This document shows positions 469 through 62,548 of a stretch of DNA of 64,000 bases, piece after piece (position 1 is the first letter of the stretch; each line of letters begins with the position of its first letter). The notes under the pieces are model-generated. The model was not told the origin of the DNA. It saw only the letters and a program-made list of their open reading frames with translations, and did no database searches. The position numbers were made by a program, and so were the translations under genes. Origin of the DNA: Anseranas semipalmata (Eukaryota > Chordata > Aves > Anseriformes > Anseranatidae); assembly GCA_013399115.1 (NCBI GenBank), contig VXAA01005193.1, positions 1,705,372 to 1,769,371 of the forward strand, given 5' to 3'.

Positions 469-566
469 CTTACTGTCTAAATAGGCATACACCAGCTTGA
501 CGTTGCCATACAGAAAGACGCTCTGGGTGATACCACCATAAAAGGGAGTAGCAATCAGAACAGCCT
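469..566 (-). CDS. ACCS: ACCS exon 7, residues 507-539 (last exon inside the window)
   Basis: The acceptor is ggttccag and the donor AGTAAG|GTAAGA, ending in phase 0. The split codon gives Glu507. It encodes EAVLIATPFYGGITQ, then SVFLYGNVKLVYAYLDSK. The TPFYGG box corresponds to the TPYY segment of aminotransferases that stacks on the cofactor ring. The following exon, and the cofactor lysine, lie to the left of position 1. Confidence 0.94.
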
Positions 567-3500
567 CTGGAACCAAGCCAACAAAACTTGTTAGAGACAG
601 GTCCCAGTCCTCCTCTCTCTTCCAACATATTTCAGCTAAGCATGAAAGCTTTTCTACAATTATGCCCTCTGGAAACACTTTAATGTTACTGCCTTTTTCT
701 CTGCTTTCTTTCTATATTAATTCTTCAGTCTTCTGCAAGAACTAGGACACTGTACATCCATCCTCAGTAACCCTGGTAAGCTTGAGCATAGCCCACATTT
801 AGTGGGCTAAACAGAGCACCCCAAAACAGTGAAGGCAGACAGGGCAAGACACAGAGTGTAAGCGTCAGAGATCTGCAGACTGTGAAGGCATTGAATTTCA
901 CAATACAATGCTGCAGGAAACAAGAACCATGCAGTAGGCCAGCGCCAATTTCGCTCTTTCACTTTCATCAAACAATATTTAAACTGAGTAACTCATTTCC
1001 CAACAAAAATAAACATTAAAAACATCTCCCAGCAATCCACTTACCCCCAGGATCACAAAGGACTGTAGCTAATGCGGAAAACAAAGAGCCACAACCGTTC
1101 AAAACAATCACCTAGAGAAGAAAGAGAGAGGCTAGTGATAAATTGGTCCATAGAAAGATACCACCACAAAAAACAATTTCTAACAATATCACCAAAATGT
1201 ATTTTCTCCCTAATTCTCTAGCATGGATGTTCCCAGAATTTTCCTGCTGAATTCCCACTTCTACCAGAAATAACTTTAATCCTTTACTCTGCTTCATGAC
1301 ACTTTGTCCAGGTGCCTTTCTCAATTGTAATAAACAACACAGTATTTAGAAAGAGCAGGTTTTAAGTTGGAAACAAACTGGGGAGAAGTTCTAAACCTCT
1401 AGAAAGGCAAAATCCTTTTCACCAGCTAATATGAGTTATCTTCTCTTTATGGTAACAGCAGCTCCTACCTCCCACCAAATTTGTTCAATAGTGGAAACTG
1501 CTGTGTTGTACAGGAGCAAGTTTGAGTCCTTCTAGAAGACCGATGCGCACAGGTCCCATGAGTTCAATCCAAGCATCAGGTAGAATCTGCTGCCTTGGAG
1601 AGGCAATGATCAGCAAACTGATCAGTGATAACTTCAGCTTATGTGAAGTAGGGGCTTCTGCTGAATTACTGCAGCCAGAAGAGCAGTGGCTGCACCAGCT
1701 CCTGCTGCCTTTATAACCCAGCAAAAGCAGGACTCATGCACACACCGAGCCCAGCCTGCATCCCTCCCAGGTCAGCAAGTCCTGCAGAGACTCAGGTCTT
1801 GACACCTTCTTTACAACACTGTCACAAAGTCTGAAAACGTCTGTTCTTGCCAGGTAAAACTACTATTGGCTTAATGACAGATTTTGTCCTGAGGTGTAAC
1901 AGCAAAACAGAAATTAAACACAGCTGAAACAATGGGCACTCTTTGTCAAGGCTGAGGGATACAAGCACTGTAGGTCCCAGAGCTGAGTAAGTAGATAAAA
2001 GCATAAAGCTTCACTGAGAGCAATGGCATGAGGAGTTGGCACACAAAAGTAAAGAATAAGGCAAATATACAGCAGAACTGAAGTGTTTTGGCTGAAGTGT
2101 GCATCAAAAGCTACTAAAATGGCTATGATTCAATCTCATTTACATGATAGAAGGCTGTCATCTTACAAAATCACTTGTTTTAAAAAAATAAGATGAAATT
2201 GTTTGACAACAAATGGCAATACATTAGAATAGACACCAATGGAAAGTGGGTTACCCACATTTTCTGCCTTAAGAGGTGCAGGGGCCTTGCAGTAATAGGT
2301 CAAAAATCGAGCCACTTCCTCCCGTAAACTGAGAAAGACACAAAAGCAAATATTGATTCAGCTTATTCTCCAAGAGGCTGGGCTTCCCTAGGTCCACATC
2401 TCAGGAAAATAAAGCCAGAAAACAGGATAGCTCAGGCCCATGCCACAGACATGACTGTTACACATGGCAAAGGTGTCATGGATAATGTGCATACATTTCT
2501 GAAGAGCTTTAATCAAGGACAGAACTGAAGGATTGAAGTCCCCAATGTCCACCATGTCTCAAGGAACTTTTTGGAGTTACCTGATTTGTTACTGTATACA
2601 GTGCTGTTAAAACTGCACTTGCTTTAGAAAATTAGCATCTTCTCTTATATAAAAGGATTTTTAACTGGATTTTTAAAGGATTTCTAACTAGTTGGGTGAC
2701 TAATTTACAGTTTTGAAAAGAAAAAGATGATTAAATGACCTAGAAATGTTTTAACTAATGTGTAGCAGAAGTGCTTTGAACTCATCCATTTTGTTTATCA
2801 GACAAGTACTCAAAAAGAGAAGCATTACAGGAATGAGAAGACTTACAACATATGTCCCTTCCAGTCAGGATACTGAAGCAGTGGAGGCTCCATGAGGTTC
2901 ATATCAGTCTGTGTCAGCTGTGAGCAACAGGAAGAAACATTAAAAGCACAATCATTGATACCAGAAACATGGAAATAGGCAGGATCCATGTGCAGGCACA
3001 CACCTGCATAGACACATACACACAAAACTTCAACAGCCTTAAAACTGGATTGAGAAAGCCACTGACCATCAAAATTAATGCAAAATTAATAATTGCCTTG
3101 GAGAGGCAATGATCAGCAAGCAGATCAGTGATAACTGCAGTTTATGGGAAGTAGGGGCTTTTGCTAAATTATTGCAGACAAAACTTCACTGCACAGAGAT
3201 CTACAAAAAGGATGCCAAACAGGCAATACAAATGATGCCCCCCAAAAAGACTTTCTGAACAAATGAAGCCAAAGTTTCTGAACCCAAAGAGTCCCAAAGA
3301 GTGTTTTGCCCAAGTTCTAAGGACAACAGCTTTCAGCTGGCAATTAAGTCCCAATCGTGAAAGCTCTAGAATCACGAAAGCTCAGGTCTAGACTGTCAGA
3401 AAGAGATAGACAGGATTTAAAATCACAGTCTGATATGTATTTTCTTTTTTTAAAGAACTTTCAATATATTATTTTTTTATGAATTCTACCTTTCATTGGT

Positions 3501-6500
3501 ATCTCAATTCTGAGTTACTCCAGACCTATAGTACTGATAAGTCTTGGTAAGTGTTAGAGGGTAACAGGAACTTTCAAAAGACAAGAGAAAAATAAAATTA
3601 TCTTCTTGAATGTCTTCCTTAGGGCAGATACTTTGTTCTTTATTAGGAGTTTATTCTGTTCTCAAAGTCAGATTCACCTGAACTGTGGGCAAGCTTTAGA
3701 GCCCTTTTTAATGTTTAGATTTAGGTAAAATAAGCACACTGCTTTGATCTAAACATTTTCAAGGTTGTAATTATCAGGGTTTCACATAATCCAGTTCTAT
3801 GAAGTTGCAAGGGGAAGTGCAGCAGTGATCAGGGCAGTGAGAAGAGTACGTTTTACATGAACAAAAAGGGAATAAACAAATGTTATGTGCAAGGTAACTG
3901 CCAACTATTTGATGACAACCAATCTATGAGTTAATGCTAAAAAAGGCAGGGGAGTGTGGACACAACGAGTAAGTGATGGTGCAAAGGAAGAGGGAAATTT
4001 AACATGCAGTGTGAAAGTCTACCACATAGTAACAAAACCACAACATTCTGCATTGGTGTTTTAATAACTTGTGCCAAGCTCTGGAGTTTAAAGACACTGT
4101 CCTCATCCCATGCAGAATTACAACCTGACATTAGGGGAATAAAGTTCCTTTATTCATCTGTAGATGTTCTTGAAGCCTATGTAGCACAGAACTATGTCTC
4201 CTTAGATCTCTCTCCTAAACTCATCTAGAGAATGCAACATAAAACATATCAGCAGACTCAGCCAAAACAGGCTATGCATTAATAAAGAGGAGATCCCTTA
4301 AAGATAATGCTTTAAGGGCTAAGAAAATCAGATGGGCCAACCAAAATGAAGACTGTCTGAGATCTCATGCCACAGAATATTATCCAATTTTAAGGGTCAA
4401 AAGTTGAAGACAGAAATCTGACACACTGCTTTATTCAGTGGAAACAGTGAGTATTTATTGCTCCCAATAGCAATAAATTATTTTTCCTACAATCCCAGCT
4501 GGTGCTGCATTCAGTGAACCCCTGCTGTAACTCTGGGCTGTGATGACAAAGAAGCTGGGAACGGTAACTTTGTCCAACTTCTTGCCACGTGCATGATGGC
4601 TCATCATACTATAGCTCATTCTCACAATAAGGCTAACGACGATGCAACTGAATGCTGTCTCCCTCCGCACTACTTGCTGCAGGCGCTGTGTTAGTGTAGG
4701 GAAAGGACAGTGAACAAAGGGAGGTACAACCTACGCAGCCCTGAGGGCACCTTCCGTGTGCACACCTACCAGGCAGCAGCTCTGCCTTACCTGTTCTTTT
4801 AGCTGGAAGGCCGAGTGGTGGGGTTGCATCCCCGAGTCAGTGGTGTGGCAGGCAGGAATAAAACAAGGAACATTTTGAGGGTGGGAATTGGTGGAACGGG
4901 AGTAACAGTGAGCTTCAAACCGCAGAGACTGACTGTCAGAACCCCAGCCACCTTCCCTCCCCACAGGCAAGGAAAAGTGCAGCCTTCCCACCTAGGAGGC
5001 TGAATCCGGGCAATAATTTTAATGGAAATCAAGAAACGTTCCTCTAAGGCACAGGTCTGTTGTTTTCTTTTGCCATTTTTTTTTTAAGTCATGCCATTTG
5101 TTTCATGCAATTGAACAAAGTGTCTGACTAGCAGCTGATCCAGTATGATTTCAAGAGATTTCATGACATGTCACATTCACTGCTGCCACCCTCTCAAATT
5201 TTAGGTAAATTCAGAACTGGGTGTCCAACCTGTGTAACTTTACAATGGACAGAGTCCACTTCCTCTGTCCCAGGCTATGAAGATCCTTGAAATTAAAGAG
5301 AGATCAAAACTAGTTCTGAGACCTCTGTATTAAATGAAATACAGTCAGTAGGAGAAAATAAAATGCATCTTAATTTCATTTAAGTACTGAGTCTCGAGTA
5401 TTTGAATGAGCCAAGTACATTCCCACAGGGAAACACACAATGAAGGGCAACAGAAAAACACCCCTGTTTCTATCCTCCTGGAAAAATAACATAAATAAGT
5501 GTACAAATAGCTGGATTCAAAAGTGACTCCCAACAATAAGAAATTCACAAGGAAAAACTTTACCAGAGAAACCTGACCAGCAGCAATAACGCTAGGAAAG
5601 TACAGACACTGAGGAGGAACTACACAGCACATTTGGTATTTCTTTTTGGAATAGGACTTACCCGTTTAGACATCAGGTCAAAGCAGAGTTTATTCTCACT
5701 GGTGCCAAAATTAATTATACCCTAGAAAAAGAAATAATTTATAATGGAAGGACGCAAAAAAAACATGTAAATACATCACCTTAGCTATTACTTCACTGAC
5801 CTGCTCCCAAAAATCTTACCAAGGAAAAGTCAAAATACAGTTCACATAAACCTCGCAATATATAACTAGAGACATATATGTATGTGAGTGTTTATATATA
5901 TATCTCAGGCCCTCAGCTTCTTAGGCAATAAACATTCTGTAAATAAGTAAGTACTAACAATTTATACTTCTTTACAAAATATGTTTAACTTATTCTTGAA
6001 TTCACTCATTGGTATGCATCTCACTGCAAAAACACATAAAACAGTTCTGGGAAAACTGAGGTTTACACTTCTGCAGCAGTTTAAAGCAATGTTTTTGATA
6101 CTTTTCTTTATCTAAATTTACTGTTTATCAGTCATTACCATTCCACTCCACTGATTCTTTCAAATAACCACATAAACACAGAGTCATTACATTTTCCCTC
6201 TGCAGAGACAATCCCGCAGTACCAGGTCTAGGATTTGGCCCTGCTTATTTAACATTATATTAGATGCTGAAGATCTCAAGTCAACTAGCACATTTTCATT
6301 ACTGGAAGAGGTTGGATAAATAAATTTTAAAAAATACAAAAGGCAATCTAAACAACTGTACAAATATGATGTTACTAAAGTACAAGTCCAATTTTAGGTA
6401 TTTGTTTAAAAATCTACTACTTACATTGTTAGTAGAAGTTAGTAGAAGTGGCAGTTTGTGCCTTGTAATGCACCTCTTTTCAAAAAATTTACTGTGTTTT

Positions 6501-9485
6501 TGTATCTTAAAAATCTAGTTTTCACCTCCCAACACTGTGTGACTCAAGTCAGGGCTCAGAATAAAACATTTTTAAATTTTCAAGTAGTTCTGTATCTGAA
6601 TGCAGGATCTATTTAAAAGTAATCCACAGATAAATCATTATTTATATTCACTATACTTGTTACTTATTCAATAATAATTATTAATACAGCCTCTGTGCCA
6701 CCAGGGGGTGTGTGACGAGCTACTTACAACTGAGCAGCAGAGCTTAAACAGGCAGGAAAAGCTCCGAGTGTTAGTTAATTTTTTAAAAAATGTCTACTAC
6801 TTTGTTGTTTTATCTCATCCACCACCCATCACCAGCAATAACTGGTGATTGTCCTCAGTGGGCAACAGTGGTGGTGAGATAAAAAAAGAGGAACAGGAGC
6901 CCTGTGTGTTCCTGCAGGTTTCTTTCACCTTTGAAGGTCTACTACTGCCACTGGCTCCCGACAGGAAAATCAGGGCATGCAAACCTGCACAGTTACTTTT
7001 TATTTCACGTCCTAGAACAAACAGCTTGACCCACCACACCTGGGTGAGCCAGGAAAACACTCTGAGACTCCCACTCACATTGGGGTTCTTGTCTTCATCA
7101 TACTTGTCAGCATGATAAGCTTTGTACCCTTCCTCGGTGGAGCCCCGGAAAATGTTGGCGATGTTGCCCCGAGCGGAGAGGTAGGGGCTCCTCTGGAACT
7201 CGCCCGGGTGGCAGAAGCCGTGCACGTCAACCCTCCTGTCGGACAGTGGTCGAGCCCTCAGCTCATGCAGGTCGCCTCCTCCTCCTCCGAGGCCGGTGAT
7301 TTCGGACAGCGCCTGTTTGAAGTCCAAGCCCCGAGGCATTGCAACGGAAGAGGAAGAGCCACTGTGGCTCTGCTTCAGGATGCTGAGCATCTGGGCAAAA
7401 ACATTGAACATGCGGAACTCATGCTCCCGCTCCAGTTCGAAACGCCGCTGCTCCAGCTGCATCCGACGCTCCTCCACGTCCAAGTCTCGCTGAAATCGTC
7501 GCTCCTCCATCTGCAAAAAGCGCTCTTCCATGGCCCGCTGAGACGTCAGGGTCTTCAGCAAGAGATCGTCGAGCGGGTCCTTCACGCGCTGGCCTTTCCG
7601 CTTTTTTCTCAGGCGATGCAAGGCGGAGAAGCCGGGCCGAGGAACCACGTTCTGGATCCGCGATGAGTTGGCCATGTTGGGCTCACTGAAACCTGTAAAG
7701 ATTTAAAAGGAGGAAGAAAAATGACACGTGCAGCAAGTAAAATGGTGTGGGCATGCTTTGCCACCTTCCACTGCCCTTCCTAGAAAACACCAGTCTATCT
7801 ACACTAGGATTTTACTGGAAAACCAAAGTAAAATCAGTCAGGAACATCTCAGAGTTTGTGAGGTTGTTTGAAGTTTGTTTTTCCTTAACTTCACATACTG
7901 GGCTCCCTATTATGCTGCCAGCAGCTGACCTGGCTCCCCGTCTGCTCTCTGGATTGACCTTAATGAGTCAACCCCTTCTGACACTGCCCTTGGCTACCTA
8001 CGCAACCACCACAGGGAGGACATAGCGTTTCTTCCTGATCTCGGAAATAAACCTCACACTGATCATCACCTCTCTTCCTCCCAAGCACACTGTGTTCTTC
8101 CATCAACCTGTCCTAGACTGGTTGGAAATCTCTGTGACTTCCAGATTCCACCTTTCACAGCAGCCAAGTAATGGTCAATTGCACTCCCAGTAAAGAAGTC
8201 TCATCTCCTTTAAACAGATAAGCTGCTTCTACCAGTGACTTTCAAAAACATCTTCTTTCCAAGTTCTAATTAACAGATTAGAAAGCCAGGCAATGATTAT
8301 CCCCAAGTATTCTTCATTGGTGAGTGTCCTAAAAGATTAGATATGGAAAACATTTAAACAGAACACAAGGAAAGTTTCACCTGCAGGTTTATAGCATCGC
8401 AATGGCAGAAGAGGGTCTCCTGATACAATTCAGCATGAGGACTGCAGACAGCCCTGGTCATGTTCAATCGACACCAAAAAGCATGCAATTTTTTTTTTTT
8501 TTTTTAATAATGTAAGCACTGTCAGCATTATATGCAGAAAACTAGCACGAATGCCTATCCCAGCTTATAGCAGATGCGACAGTCCTTTGGATTTCATATG
8601 CAGTATTCAGCCTAGCACGGTAATTTTAGATTTTATTTACCTGCAGCAAGACACGTTTCAGGAATTGCCAGAAGACTATTAATGCGGATACCAGCCTTCT
8701 ACTTTAAAGCTTTTTGGGACGTGGAAAATAAGAATCCAAACGTCAATGCAAAAAACCAGGTGTCTATCTCCGCACCAGAAAAAAAAAATCTCTCTTTCTG
8801 GGAAACAAGGCGGCAACCTTATGCTGGAATGTAAAAGGCCATCCCTACCTGAAGGTGAAACACTGGTTTCAATGGGAATCTCCACCCTGGAGATGGGAGA
8901 GTCGTTCTGGGCCCTCTCCAAGAAGGCTCTCTCCATCTCCTGTTCTTCAGGGGAGCCCTGCTGGTAAGACATGGATGGTGGGGGCTCTGGGGTCAAGCAG
9001 TGTTCATCAGAGTTCACCTCCTCACATTTGATTTCCATCAGTTCGGGGTGCTGCGAGTGCCCGAAGGGCAGGGCGGAGGCGGCGAACTGGTGGTGGTAGC
9101 TCTCCACCATGCTGCCCTGCAGCACCTGCTGGGCCATCATGCTGCCGCTCAGCGGGCCGTAGGCCAGCGAGGGGCGGCTGTTGAGCACCCGGTCCATCAC
9201 GTCGTAGAACTTCCAGGTCCGGCCGCCCCGCGGGGCCTTGCTGTTGTCCTTGATCCGCCGGTACTCCAGCTTCATCTTCTTGATCTTCTCCCGGCACTGG
9301 TCGCCCGTCCGGTGGATGCCCTTCTCCCTCAGCACCTCGGCGATGCGGTTGAAGACGTGCTGGTTCCGCAGGCAGCTCTCCAGCTCCATCTGCACCGACT
9401 CGTCGGCCCAGAGCTGCAGCAGCTCCACCACCTCGGGGTCCGACCAGTTGCTGCCGCGCTCGTACTTCTTCCCCCGAAAATCCAT
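469..9485 (-). CDS. ACCS: ACCS/ACCSL-like protein with N-terminal Myb/SANT (trihelix) domain; 5' part, seven coding exons
   Basis: Joined exons (minus strand): 9485-8849, 7692-7079, 5721-5662, 2917-2847, 2328-2259, 1111-1045, 566-469. Every junction has AG/GT sites and the phases (1,0,0,2,0,1,0) keep one frame through 539 residues. Residues 12-102 are a Myb/SANT-like domain, 239-250 a basic patch, 252-320 a charged coiled coil, and from about 381 onward the chain aligns with vertebrate ACCS (GTSENKLCFDL, LLQYPDW, LREEVA, TPFYGGITQ). ACCS proteins belong to the class I/II PLP aminotransferase fold; from memory, human ACCS has little or no true ACC synthase activity. The catalytic lysine region lies beyond the left edge, so activity cannot be judged here. 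The start at 9485 has G at -3 and +4, but the frame stays open upstream into the N-run, so an earlier start is possible. The sequence mixes ACCS-like and ACCSL-like residues, as expected of a gene from before the mammalian duplication. Confidence 0.92.
567..1044 (-). other. ACCS intron 6
   Basis: The donor is GTAAGT at 1044 and the acceptor ccag ends at 567. It is ordinary AT-rich intronic sequence in which I see no other feature. Confidence 0.8.
1045..1111 (-). CDS. ACCS: ACCS exon 6, residues 485-506 plus one base of 507
   Basis: The acceptor is ctctag and the donor GGGG|GTAAGT, leaving phase 1. It encodes VIVLNGCGSLFSALATVLC and then DPG. This is the loop that contacts the PLP phosphate in fold-type I aminotransferases. 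The NGCGS sequence differs slightly from the human ACCS and ACCSL versions (NGGAS and NGCCS, from memory). Confidence 0.94.
1112..2258 (-). other. ACCS intron 5, containing one copy of an 84-base repeat
   Basis: The donor is GTGGGT and the acceptor ctctag. The stretch 1591-1674 is one copy of an 84-base unit whose second copy lies in intron 3. Nothing else is recognisable. Confidence 0.8.
1591..1674 (+). repeat. 84-base intronic repeat, copy A
   Basis: Begins TGCCTTGGAGAGGCAATGAT and ends in ATTACTGCAG. By eye it matches 3094-3177 over 84 ungapped positions with 8 mismatches. Family not recognised. Confidence 0.8.
2259..2328 (-). CDS. ACCS: ACCS exon 5, residues 461 (last base) to 484
   Basis: The acceptor is tttctcag. 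It encodes LREEVARFLTYYCKAPAPL and then KAEN. LREEVARFL is a strongly conserved ACCS/ACCSL block. Frame and homology to the next exon (EN|VIVLNG) require the donor AAT|GTGGGT, a weaker site than the flanking GTAAGT-type donors. The overlapping GTAACC four bases downstream would break the frame. Confidence 0.93.
2847..2917 (-). CDS. ACCS: ACCS exon 4, residues 438-460 plus two bases of 461
   Basis: The acceptor is ctcacag and the donor ATGTT|GTAAGT, leaving phase 2. It encodes LTQTDMNLMEPPLLQYPDW and then KGHM. The LLQYPDW motif is diagnostic of ACCS/ACCSL; human ACCSL also has YPDW, while human ACCS has YADW. The split codon with exon 5 gives Phe461. Confidence 0.95.
2918..5661 (-). other. 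ACCS intron 3 (about 2.7 kb), containing the second copy of the 84-base repeat
   Basis: The largest intron of the gene inside the window. Apart from the repeat copy at 3094-3177, I see no exon-like block with flanking splice sites that matches a known family. The stretch around 4740-4990 is locally GC-rich without a recognisable gene. Confidence 0.75.
3094..3177 (+). repeat. 84-base intronic repeat, copy B
   Basis: Same orientation as 1591-1674, about 1.5 kb away, with 8 differences in 84 aligned bases. It is either a local duplication or two insertions of an unidentified short element. Confidence 0.8.
5662..5721 (-). CDS. ACCS: ACCS exon 3, residues 418-437
   Basis: A 60-base phase-0 exon with acceptor ttttctag and donor CGG|GTAAGT. 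It encodes GIINFGTSENKLCFDL followed by MSKR. The GTSENKL segment is the first conserved box of ACC synthase-like enzymes, equivalent to the plant AENQL box, whose Glu contributes to the active site. Confidence 0.95.
5722..7078 (-). other. ACCS intron 2
   Basis: The donor is GTGAGT at 7078 and the acceptor ctttttctag ends at 5722. It is AT-rich with a TA/TG-rich low-complexity patch at about 5868-5903. Exon 2 can be read through into this intron as an open frame to 6815, but homology to ACCS stops exactly at the donor. Confidence 0.8.
7079..7692 (-). CDS. ACCS: ACCS exon 2: basic patch, coiled coil, linker and start of ACCS homology, residues 213-417
   Basis: The acceptor (tttacag) is at 7693-7694 and the donor is AAT|GTGAGT. 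The split codon from exon 1 gives Gly213, followed in frame by Phe-Ser-Glu-Pro-Asn and then Met219. Residues 239-250 (RLRKKRKGQRVK) look like a nuclear localisation signal. Residues 252-320 form a charged coiled coil with repeated MEER/VEERR/LEQRR units. A Gly run (GGGGG, near residue 350) leads to a linker. From about residue 381 (YLSARG, then EEGYKAYH and DEDKNP) the sequence matches the conserved start of vertebrate ACCS. From memory, human ACCSL keeps a related coiled-coil segment upstream of its enzyme domain. Met219 has A at -3 and G at +4, so it could start a shorter isoform lacking the DNA-binding domain. Confidence 0.92.
7693..8848 (-). other. ACCS intron 1
   Basis: The donor is GTAGGG at 8848 and the acceptor tttacag ends at 7693. 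It joins the Myb/SANT exon to the coiled-coil exon. It contains a T-run at 8489-8505. No other gene is seen. Confidence 0.85.
8849..9485 (-). CDS. ACCS: ACCS exon 1: Myb/SANT-like (trihelix) domain and acidic linker, residues 1-212
   Basis: This exon encodes a Myb/SANT-like DNA-binding module of the Myb_DNA-bind_4 type. Trp14, Trp26 and Trp91 mark the hydrophobic core. A Cys64-Arg-Glu-Lys segment and a basic third helix (KKMKLEYRRIK, residues 69-79) would face DNA. Residues 103-212 are a low-complexity linker rich in Ser, Gln, Pro and Glu. It contains a sumoylation-type motif, Ile152-Lys153-Cys-Glu155. The exon ends in phase 1 at a CAG|GTAGGG donor. Read alone it would pass for an MSANTD-family gene; the in-frame splice to the next exon is why I assign it to ACCS. 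Codon use is very GC-rich, as usual for a CpG-island first exon. Its upstream edge abuts an assembly gap. Confidence 0.88.
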
Positions 9486-9501
9486 CCCTCCCGCGGCCCG
9501 C

Positions 9502-9522
9502 GGGCGCCGGGGGCGGGCGGGG
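9502..9522 (+). other. G-quadruplex-capable motif beside gap 1
   Basis: Four G-runs (3, 5, 3 and 4 G) separated by loops of 4, 1 and 1 bases, 34 bases from the N-run. Confidence 0.7.
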
Positions 9523-9556
9523 CCCAGGGGCTCCGGGCCTGGCCCTCCCGGGACCC

Positions 9557-9973
9557 NNNNNNNNNNNNNNNNNNNNNNNNNNNNNNNNNNNNNNNNNNNN
9601 NNNNNNNNNNNNNNNNNNNNNNNNNNNNNNNNNNNNNNNNNNNNNNNNNNNNNNNNNNNNNNNNNNNNNNNNNNNNNNNNNNNNNNNNNNNNNNNNNNNN
9701 NNNNNNNNNNNNNNNNNNNNNNNNNNNNNNNNNNNNNNNNNNNNNNNNNNNNNNNNNNNNNNNNNNNNNNNNNNNNNNNNNNNNNNNNNNNNNNNNNNNN
9801 NNNNNNNNNNNNNNNNNNNNNNNNNNNNNNNNNNNNNNNNNNNNNNNNNNNNNNNNNNNNNNNNNNNNNNNNNNNNNNNNNNNNNNNNNNNNNNNNNNNN
9901 NNNNNNNNNNNNNNNNNNNNNNNNNNNNNNNNNNNNNNNNNNNNNNNNNNNNNNNNNNNNNNNNNNNNNNNNN
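9557..9973. other. Assembly gap of 417 N
   Basis: Unresolved bases directly upstream of the ACCS start codon, flanked by extremely GC-rich sequence. The 5' UTR, the promoter and possibly more N-terminal codons are probably hidden here. Confidence 1.
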
Positions 9974-61719: not shown

Positions 61720-62548
61720 NNNNNNNNNNNNNNNNNNNNNNNNNNNNNNNNNNNNNNNNNNNNNNNNNNNNNNNNNNNNNNNNNNNNNNNNNNNNNNNNN
61801 NNNNNNNNNNNNNNNNNNNNNNNNNNNNNNNNNNNNNNNNNNNNNNNNNNNNNNNNNNNNNNNNNNNNNNNNNNNNNNNNNNNNNNNNNNNNNNNNNNNN
61901 NNNNNNNNNNNNNNNNNNNNNNNNNNNNNNNNNNNNNNNNNNNNNNNNNNNNNNNNNNNNNNNNNNNNNNNNNNNNNNNNNNNNNNNNNNNNNNNNNNNN
62001 NNNNNNNNNNNNNNNNNNNNNNNNNNNNNNNNNNNNNNNNNNNNNNNNNNNNNNNNNNNNNNNNNNNNNNNNNNNNNNNNNNNNNNNNNNNNNNNNNNNN
62101 NNNNNNNNNNNNNNNNNNNNNNNNNNNNNNNNNNNNNNNNNNNNNNNNNNNNNNNNNNNNNNNNNNNNNNNNNNNNNNNNNNNNNNNNNNNNNNNNNNNN
62201 NNNNNNNNNNNNNNNNNNNNNNNNNNNNNNNNNNNNNNNNNNNNNNNNNNNNNNNNNNNNNNNNNNNNNNNNNNNNNNNNNNNNNNNNNNNNNNNNNNNN
62301 NNNNNNNNNNNNNNNNNNNNNNNNNNNNNNNNNNNNNNNNNNNNNNNNNNNNNNNNNNNNNNNNNNNNNNNNNNNNNNNNNNNNNNNNNNNNNNNNNNNN
62401 NNNNNNNNNNNNNNNNNNNNNNNNNNNNNNNNNNNNNNNNNNNNNNNNNNNNNNNNNNNNNNNNNNNNNNNNNNNNNNNNNNNNNNNNNNNNNNNNNNNN
62501 NNNNNNNNNNNNNNNNNNNNNNNNNNNNNNNNNNNNNNNNNNNNNNNN
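61720..62548. other. Assembly gap of 829 N
   Basis: Unresolved bases between very GC-rich flanks. It probably holds the coding region of the gene proposed at 61442-62660. Confidence 1.

Follow-up and report, generated by a model that had tools for sequence, protein, structure and literature searches.

A stretch of 64,000 nucleotides from Anseranas semipalmata (GenBank assembly GCA_013399115.1, contig VXAA01005193.1, positions 1,705,372 to 1,769,371 of the forward strand)—hereafter the window—holds on its minus strand the 5′ part of a gene that joins a Myb/SANT (trihelix) domain to a pyridoxal 5′-phosphate (PLP) domain resembling 1-aminocyclopropane-1-carboxylate (ACC) synthase. We regard the fusion itself as almost certain, and its relatives across jawed vertebrates point to an ancient origin. 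Genes of this kind are filed as homologues, at times as ‘probable inactive’ ones, of a plant-hormone enzyme, while the best conserved part of the product is a putative DNA-binding domain. Taken as a whole, mechanism included, we think it on balance probable that the gene encodes a fused, nuclear and dimeric DNA-binding protein with a PLP domain as its sensor and dimer core.

Gene structure and domain content

The window contains seven exons of the gene (Table 1), which together give 539 open residues without a stop. Exon 1 begins with the ATG at 9485 and runs for 637 nt to a phase 1 end at the donor CAG/GTAGGG (8849/8848); exon 2 follows the acceptor tttacag/GTTTCAG, covers 614 nt (7692–7079) and ends in phase 0 at AAT/gtgagt. 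Residue 213 is a glycine whose codon is split between the two exons and is followed by F-S-E-P-N and Met219. A preliminary description of this DNA had given the same limits, phase and donor for exon 1, the same completed glycine codon with five further codons before Met219 and the same phase 0 join of exon 2 to exon 3, all of which agree with our reconstruction to the base. Exons 3–7 have AG/GT borders throughout and matching phases, and the frame is kept to residue 539. The six introns within the window sum to 7.4 kb, and the gene runs off the window past position 1, so that the PLP lysine lies outside it. Searches with tblastn using three relatives recovered the same seven exons (only the ACCS-like ones with the unfused P0211) and found no second copy of the gene in the window at E 1e-3.

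Among the 82 Myb-bearing relatives with a full PLP domain (hereafter the 82 fusions), the junction SVSPSGFSEPN is identical in 26, has aligned variants in 50 and falls in a gap in six, which makes 7692 the likely acceptor. An alternative acceptor three bases upstream, at 7695, is open and would add one alanine; it was set aside in favour of the junction that is exact in those 26 relatives.

Both parts are recognised by Pfam, at scores beyond chance, in the joined 539-residue chain: PF13837 (Myb_DNA-bind_4) at residues 12–99 (E 2.4e-21, 76.4 bits against a cut-off of 27) and PF00155 (aminotransferase class I/II) from residue 420 (E 2.7e-12, 47 bits against a cut-off of 19.7), the latter match being partial because the window ends. 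The GeBP-like family PF04504 stayed under its cut-off. When 44 relatives were searched in the same way, PF00155 was present in all of them, reaching 204 bits in the full-length canary relative P0006, and PF13837 in 37 at E ≤ 0.001; the other seven were unfused proteins included on purpose. The only further family to pass was PF01212, in two of the 44.

Relatives suggest a full fused protein of about 890 residues, in which the Myb/SANT domain would be followed by an acidic linker that bears a motif of the sumoylation type, then by a basic stretch, a coiled-coil-like helix, the PLP domain and a C-terminal tail. The I-K-C-E of the linker is what we take to be a sumoylation-type motif (psi-K-x-E), and its K153 and E155 are invariant in all 24 aligned exon-1 sequences; the basic stretch RLRKKRKGQR resembles a nuclear-localisation motif, and the long charged helix of residues 248–325 is a probable coiled coil. 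Similarity to plant ACC synthase begins at residues 386–400, as placed by PDB alignments of P0006. Because exon 2 holds the basic stretch and the coiled-coil-like helix ahead of this similarity, and by itself joins the coil to the ACCS-like start with no intron between, the point at which the Myb and enzyme parts were fused lies, judging from the sequence, elsewhere than at the exon 1/2 splice. The preliminary description had a Myb/SANT domain spliced in frame onto ACCS: the single chain with both Pfam domains stands, and the splice as the place of fusion does not.

In at least 60 of the 82 fusions the C-terminal tail carries DEVI[FYC][VIL]S (TDEVIFVS in P0006), which was not seen in the fish proteins P0056, P0078, P0099 and P0119. 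This stretch of the tail resembles a SUMO-interacting motif, and it and the IKCE motif may be the two sides of a SUMO circuit. At the other end of the gene, a CpG-rich stretch (9001–9650) around the start codon borders on an assembly gap of 417 N (9557–9973), which begins directly 5′ of that codon; the promoter and some of the 5′ untranslated region may lie within the gap.

Table 1. Exons, intron 1 and sequence features of the fusion gene in the window (residues numbered along the joined chain).
Feature	Position	Strand	Basis
Exon 1: start codon, Myb/SANT (trihelix) domain, acidic linker, phase 1 end	8849..9485	-	sequence, Pfam
Myb_DNA-bind_4 (PF13837), residues 12-99	9189..9452	-	Pfam E 2.4e-21
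I-K-C-E, putative sumoylation-type motif, then acidic residues	9021..9032	-	[IV]KxE in 75/82 fused proteins
Intron 1, GTAGGG...TTTACAG	7693..8848	-	sequence
Exon 2: Gly213 completed, basic stretch, coiled-coil-like helix, linker, start of ACC-synthase similarity, phase 0 end	7079..7692	-	
Basic stretch RLRKKRKGQR, nuclear-localisation-like	7586..7615	-	basic cluster in 79/82 fused proteins, by eye
Long charged helix, residues 248-325, putative coiled coil	7355..7588	-	sequence; conservation
First ACC-synthase-like residues, from about residue 400, EGYKAYHADKYDEDKNPN	7079..7132	-	best PDB match, relative P0006
Exon 3, 60 nt	5662..5721	-	splice borders; tblastn
Exon 4, 71 nt	2847..2917	-	splice borders; tblastn
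Exon 5, 70 nt	2259..2328	-	splice borders; tblastn
Exon 6, 67 nt	1045..1111	-	splice borders; tblastn
Exon 7, 98 nt	469..566	-	splice borders; tblastn

Distribution of the fusion and the mammalian copies

The 539-residue query gave 423 matches among 7994 scored candidates, and the best 120 of these were listed. PF13837 and PF00155 occur in one chain in 97 of the 120, and an independent domain check found both parts in 98; the preliminary description had proposed looking for Myb_DNA-bind_4 in ACCS chains of fishes, reptiles and birds, and there it is. Whole-query matches range from 47 to 95% identity, with the swift Apus apus at the top. Fused proteins among the matches listed come from birds, turtles, crocodilians, lizards, snakes, frogs, salamanders and caecilians, from mammals (platypus, echidna, Tasmanian devil and Dromiciops) and from fishes (coelacanth, gar, bowfin, teleosts, sharks, a ray and a chimaera). 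Named eutherians, jawless vertebrates and invertebrates are not represented in these best 120 of 423. As the fusion is common to cartilaginous fishes, bony fishes and tetrapods, the sequences place it in the jawed-vertebrate ancestor, before cartilaginous and bony fishes split.

These relatives are mostly predicted gene models, and an older model from Anolis (P0117, 410 aa) stops just after exon 2, as might be expected had gene prediction merged two neighbouring genes. Such an artefact would not account for the same or a similar junction in many lineages, for phases that match at every exon or for an exon 2 that by itself links the coil to the ACCS-like start. It is also at odds with three short single contigs, taken to be assembled archive reads (source ‘lgn’), that each encode the whole fusion: P0072 (852 aa on 2829 nt), P0082 (902 aa on 3666 nt) and P0088 (921 aa on 3621 nt). 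At 2.8–3.7 kb they are too small to hold the introns, which in the window alone amount to 7.4 kb, and so have the look of spliced mRNA, retrocopies being the other possible source. We reject a merger as extremely improbable.

Another possibility is that the gene has two main products—a Myb and coiled-coil factor made when a downstream intron is retained, and a Myb-less enzyme made from an alternative first exon—with the fusion a minor one. PF00155 was found without PF13837 in 21 of the 120 matches listed, and PF13837 without PF00155 in two (P0117 and P0047, the latter of 461 aa and ending after exon 4), as this arrangement would have it. Exon 2 is moreover surrounded by a CpG-rich stretch of its own (7051–7750), possibly an internal promoter from which Myb-less isoforms of the kind annotated in turtles could be made. 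On the other side stand the 97 fused matches, the contigs of intronless size with whole fusions and the fused models in every major jawed-vertebrate group among the matches listed; both Myb-only models, too, contain the exon 1–2 junction and the first ACCS-like residues. We consider this arrangement improbable. It resembles the case that the preliminary description had raised against a fusion, with transcripts of the Myb exon ending early and ACCS transcripts starting at exon 2, a case that is excluded only in part, as Myb-less models exist beside the fusion.

Two other sources for the separate parts were considered and dropped. An unfused second gene in reptiles and amphibians finds no place in the tree, where Myb-less reptile, bird and salamander rows sit with the fused proteins of their own species or group and are taken to be isoforms or partial models. 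A separate trihelix paralogue as the source of exon 1 was sought with exon 1 alone, which gave 67 matches from 215 candidates of about 117–371 aa, length and shared-word filters limiting the coverage; no close unfused paralogue was seen among the 67, which, in their first 28 residues and from residue 150 onward, appear to be exon 1 of this same gene, mostly read into intron 1, or partial models. Two of them (P0185 and P0188) are without a PF13837 label and look like chimaeric pieces. A chicken gene named ACCSL is listed among the differentially expressed genes in a study of the laying-hen magnum (PMC8088581), which is evidence for the expression of a gene so named and for no more than that.

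Separate copies are seen in mammals only. In a tree of the PLP domain from 57 proteins (midpoint-rooted for drawing, two chosen rows having been dropped because they had no full domain), most fused proteins follow their species groups. The echidna has both a fused protein (P0046) and an unfused one of 501 residues (P0210), on contigs of equal size (59,719,615), which suggests that the two copies lie on one chromosome. Sarcophilus, Macrotis and Notamacropus each have two distinct copies, and the Myb exon is absent from some marsupial rows of the fused kind. Unfused marsupial copies and placental proteins form one group (97/84), within a mammalian clade (100/99). Marsupial copies of the fused kind are placed with the unfused proteins of mammals (99/95) and apart from the fused monotreme ones; a single early duplication followed by a single loss of the head therefore does not fit the tree as drawn, for which long branches, gene conversion or several losses might be the reason. 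The tree points to an origin of the unfused copies within mammals and suggests that placental ACCS, itself unfused, goes back to the fused gene.

In the eutherian ACCS models (about 500 aa) that were read at their N-terminal ends, the Myb domain is missing, in agreement with what the preliminary description had said of human ACCS. In the search for unfused proteins (120 rows), chains above approximately 696 aa were not candidates, so that the absence of PF13837 from that set is partly by construction; what we say of placentals rests on the N-terminal ends and on the lack of named eutherians among the best 120 of the 423 matches. That placental ACCSL descends from the fused copy is conjecture. 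In two rodent models, P0194 (Cricetulus) and P0200 (Apodemus), pieces resembling another ACCS-family gene precede the ACCS N-terminus, as if two adjacent genes had been joined in the model; of these two short ACCSL-like pieces, that of P0194 best matches the marsupial fused protein and that of P0200 elephant ACCS.

Constraint, catalytic residues and proposed mechanism

Between the canary and two sharks and a chimaera, identity is 92–93% in the Myb domain, 68–69% in the coil and 65–68% in the PLP domain, and falls to 39–42% and 32–34% in the first and second linkers. Among 21 fused relatives, the lowest identity in the Myb domain is 80%, in Anolis, where 11 columns are gapped, and the highest 97%. 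In the 19 fused proteins with a full PLP domain (the truncated models P0046, P0049 and P0058 were left out), 71 of 105 Myb, 103 of 387 PLP, 16 of 78 coil and 2 of 107 first-linker columns are invariant, and the tree lengths of these four parts for the same 19 are 1.27, 3.43, 4.89 and 7.51 substitutions per site, respectively. On these alignments, the Myb domain is the slowest-evolving part of the fused protein. Its recognition-helix stretch, QCREKIKKMKLEYRR[IL], recurs in 145 of 165 relatives picked by the N-terminal half of the domain alone, without use of the helix stretch, and the remaining 20 differ at one or more positions. Such conservation is as expected if specific DNA contacts matter, and is not proof of binding.

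The cofactor lysine is present in all 82 fusions, together with the asparagine (82), the aspartate (80), the tyrosine (79) and two arginines (78 and 80) of the active site. At the position of plant Tyr85 there is tryptophan in 76, leucine in two and a gap in four, with tryptophan also in exon 4 of the window; the position like Ser255 of aspartate aminotransferase (AspAT) is glycine in all 82. These equivalences follow AspAT and ACC synthase numbering together with the PDB alignment. In 91 proteins without Myb domain and coil, partial models included, the lysine is found in 90, with one gap, and the Ser255-like position is alanine in 64, glycine in 23, serine in three and a gap in one. The best PDB matches for P0006, over residues 386–803, are plant ACC synthases (best E 5e-64). 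With the lysine kept, the fused protein is likely to bind PLP, and with tryptophan at the Tyr85 position it is unlikely to perform classical ACC synthesis. The latter agrees with the statement, in PMC2748086, that the human ACCS product has no ACC synthase activity. In NCBIfam, the best profile for P0006 and P0078 is NF041364, a PLP-dependent cyclodehydratase, which in P0006 (E 6.7e-35, 120.6 bits) stays far under the 415-bit cut-off and perhaps hints at the kind of chemistry.

The same residues bear on the main competing explanation, a metabolic PLP enzyme tethered to chromatin—an active aminotransferase, lyase or similar—whose purpose is catalysis. The retained fold-type-I residues and a PLP domain still well conserved between the canary and cartilaginous fishes are what such an enzyme should have; the substitutions at the Tyr85 and Ser255-like positions, the reported inactivity of the unfused human paralogue as an ACC synthase and a slowest-evolving part that is the Myb domain and not the enzyme argue against it, and we judge it unlikely, though less so than two separate products. 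The preliminary description had suggested either a chromatin-associated metabolic enzyme or an enzyme fold reused as a regulatory domain, and the sequences fit both.

We favour a regulator. The basic stretch and the [IV]KxE motif would place the fused protein in the nucleus, where the PLP fold and the coiled coil would hold together a dimer whose two Myb/SANT heads could bind DNA. The ACC-synthase-like, fold-type-I domain would, by analogy, serve mainly as dimer core and would sense PLP or a ligand resembling an amino acid, whether or not some catalysis remains.

Several points tell against this regulator. Ligand sensing is proposed by analogy, and the retained catalytic residues would suit an enzyme just as well. 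The Myb domain is unevenly conserved (80% in Anolis, 85–86% in two teleosts), Myb/SANT folds can bind proteins as well as DNA, and the only solved relative found for exon 1 was the plant trihelix factor GT-1 (2ebi), a weak match at E 3e-4. The PF00155-only matches include isoform models from turtle, python and caecilian, and given such Myb-less models the fusion may be one product among several of the gene. The placement of the marsupial copies, finally, departs from a simple history.

An orphan gene is thereby recast: its product seems to have been a regulator from the start, and the placental gene after which the family is named seems to be a derived, headless copy. If the regulator is real, animal transcription would be tied directly to the chemistry of vitamin B6 or of amino acids, and the missing expected activity of the human protein might be easier to explain.

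Surroundings and comparison with known systems

Elsewhere in the window, Pfam matched none of ten chosen open frames beyond 11 kb (of 484 frames of at least 55 aa), and searches of the window for tRNA genes, Rfam families and tandem repeats gave no matches. CpG-rich stretches at 55.1–57.5 kb and 62.5–63.4 kb may mark other promoters, and another assembly gap spans 61720–62548.

The fused sequence is not new, as it stands in public gene models with its domains precomputed. No published description of a Myb/ACCS fusion was found in a search of titles and abstract openings, most subscription journals lying outside its coverage.

ACCS and ACCSL belong to the same gene family, their PLP domain being orthologous or paralogous to that of the fused protein, and public records list many fused proteins as ACCS-like protein 1 or 2; placental ACCS differs in that its models of about 500 aa are without Myb domain and coiled coil. 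Plant ACC synthases (1iax, 1m4n and 7dlw) are the closest solved PLP structures (E 5e-64 to 2e-60 with P0006); they differ in having Tyr85 where most fusions have tryptophan, and the plant chains in PDB match the enzyme part only.

Trihelix factors, such as plant GT-1 and animal MSANTD proteins, share PF13837, which is above its cut-off in the fused protein. A Myb domain with a coiled coil is a usual layout of factors of this type, from which the fused protein departs by an enzyme domain after the Myb domain in the same chain. Transposase-derived vertebrate transcription factors are likewise vertebrate genes that join a DNA-binding domain to another; the difference is that no transposase family is among the Pfam matches of the 44 relatives, a comparison made without a transposon library. 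A term search of the main text of PMC10027918 returned no mention of ACCS.

The closest parallel in working is bacterial. According to PMC5320631, MocR regulators combine a GntR-family DNA-binding domain with an aminotransferase-like sensory domain that takes up PLP, and the way in which they form dimers is likened to that of class I aminotransferases. The fused protein resembles MocR and GabR in joining a DNA-binding domain to an aminotransferase-like one, here PF13837 and then PF00155. It differs in that the former is of the Myb/SANT and not the GntR type (no GntR-type domain passes Pfam in the window chain or the 44 relatives), in its coiled-coil-like helix, in its vertebrate origin and in having plant ACC synthases as its closest solved PLP relatives. 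The resemblance, drawn by analogy, would be one of logic and not of membership, and need not mean kinship. We tentatively suggest, as a possibility that we hold with less confidence than the regulator itself, that the protein is a jawed-vertebrate counterpart of MocR, in which an aminotransferase-type domain would read the level of PLP or of an amino-acid metabolite for DNA-bound Myb/SANT heads. The fusion that gave rise to it would predate the divergence of sharks and bony fishes, and placentals would have kept derived headless copies only. If so, vertebrates would have invented separately the bacterial layout of a DNA-binding domain joined to an aminotransferase fold.

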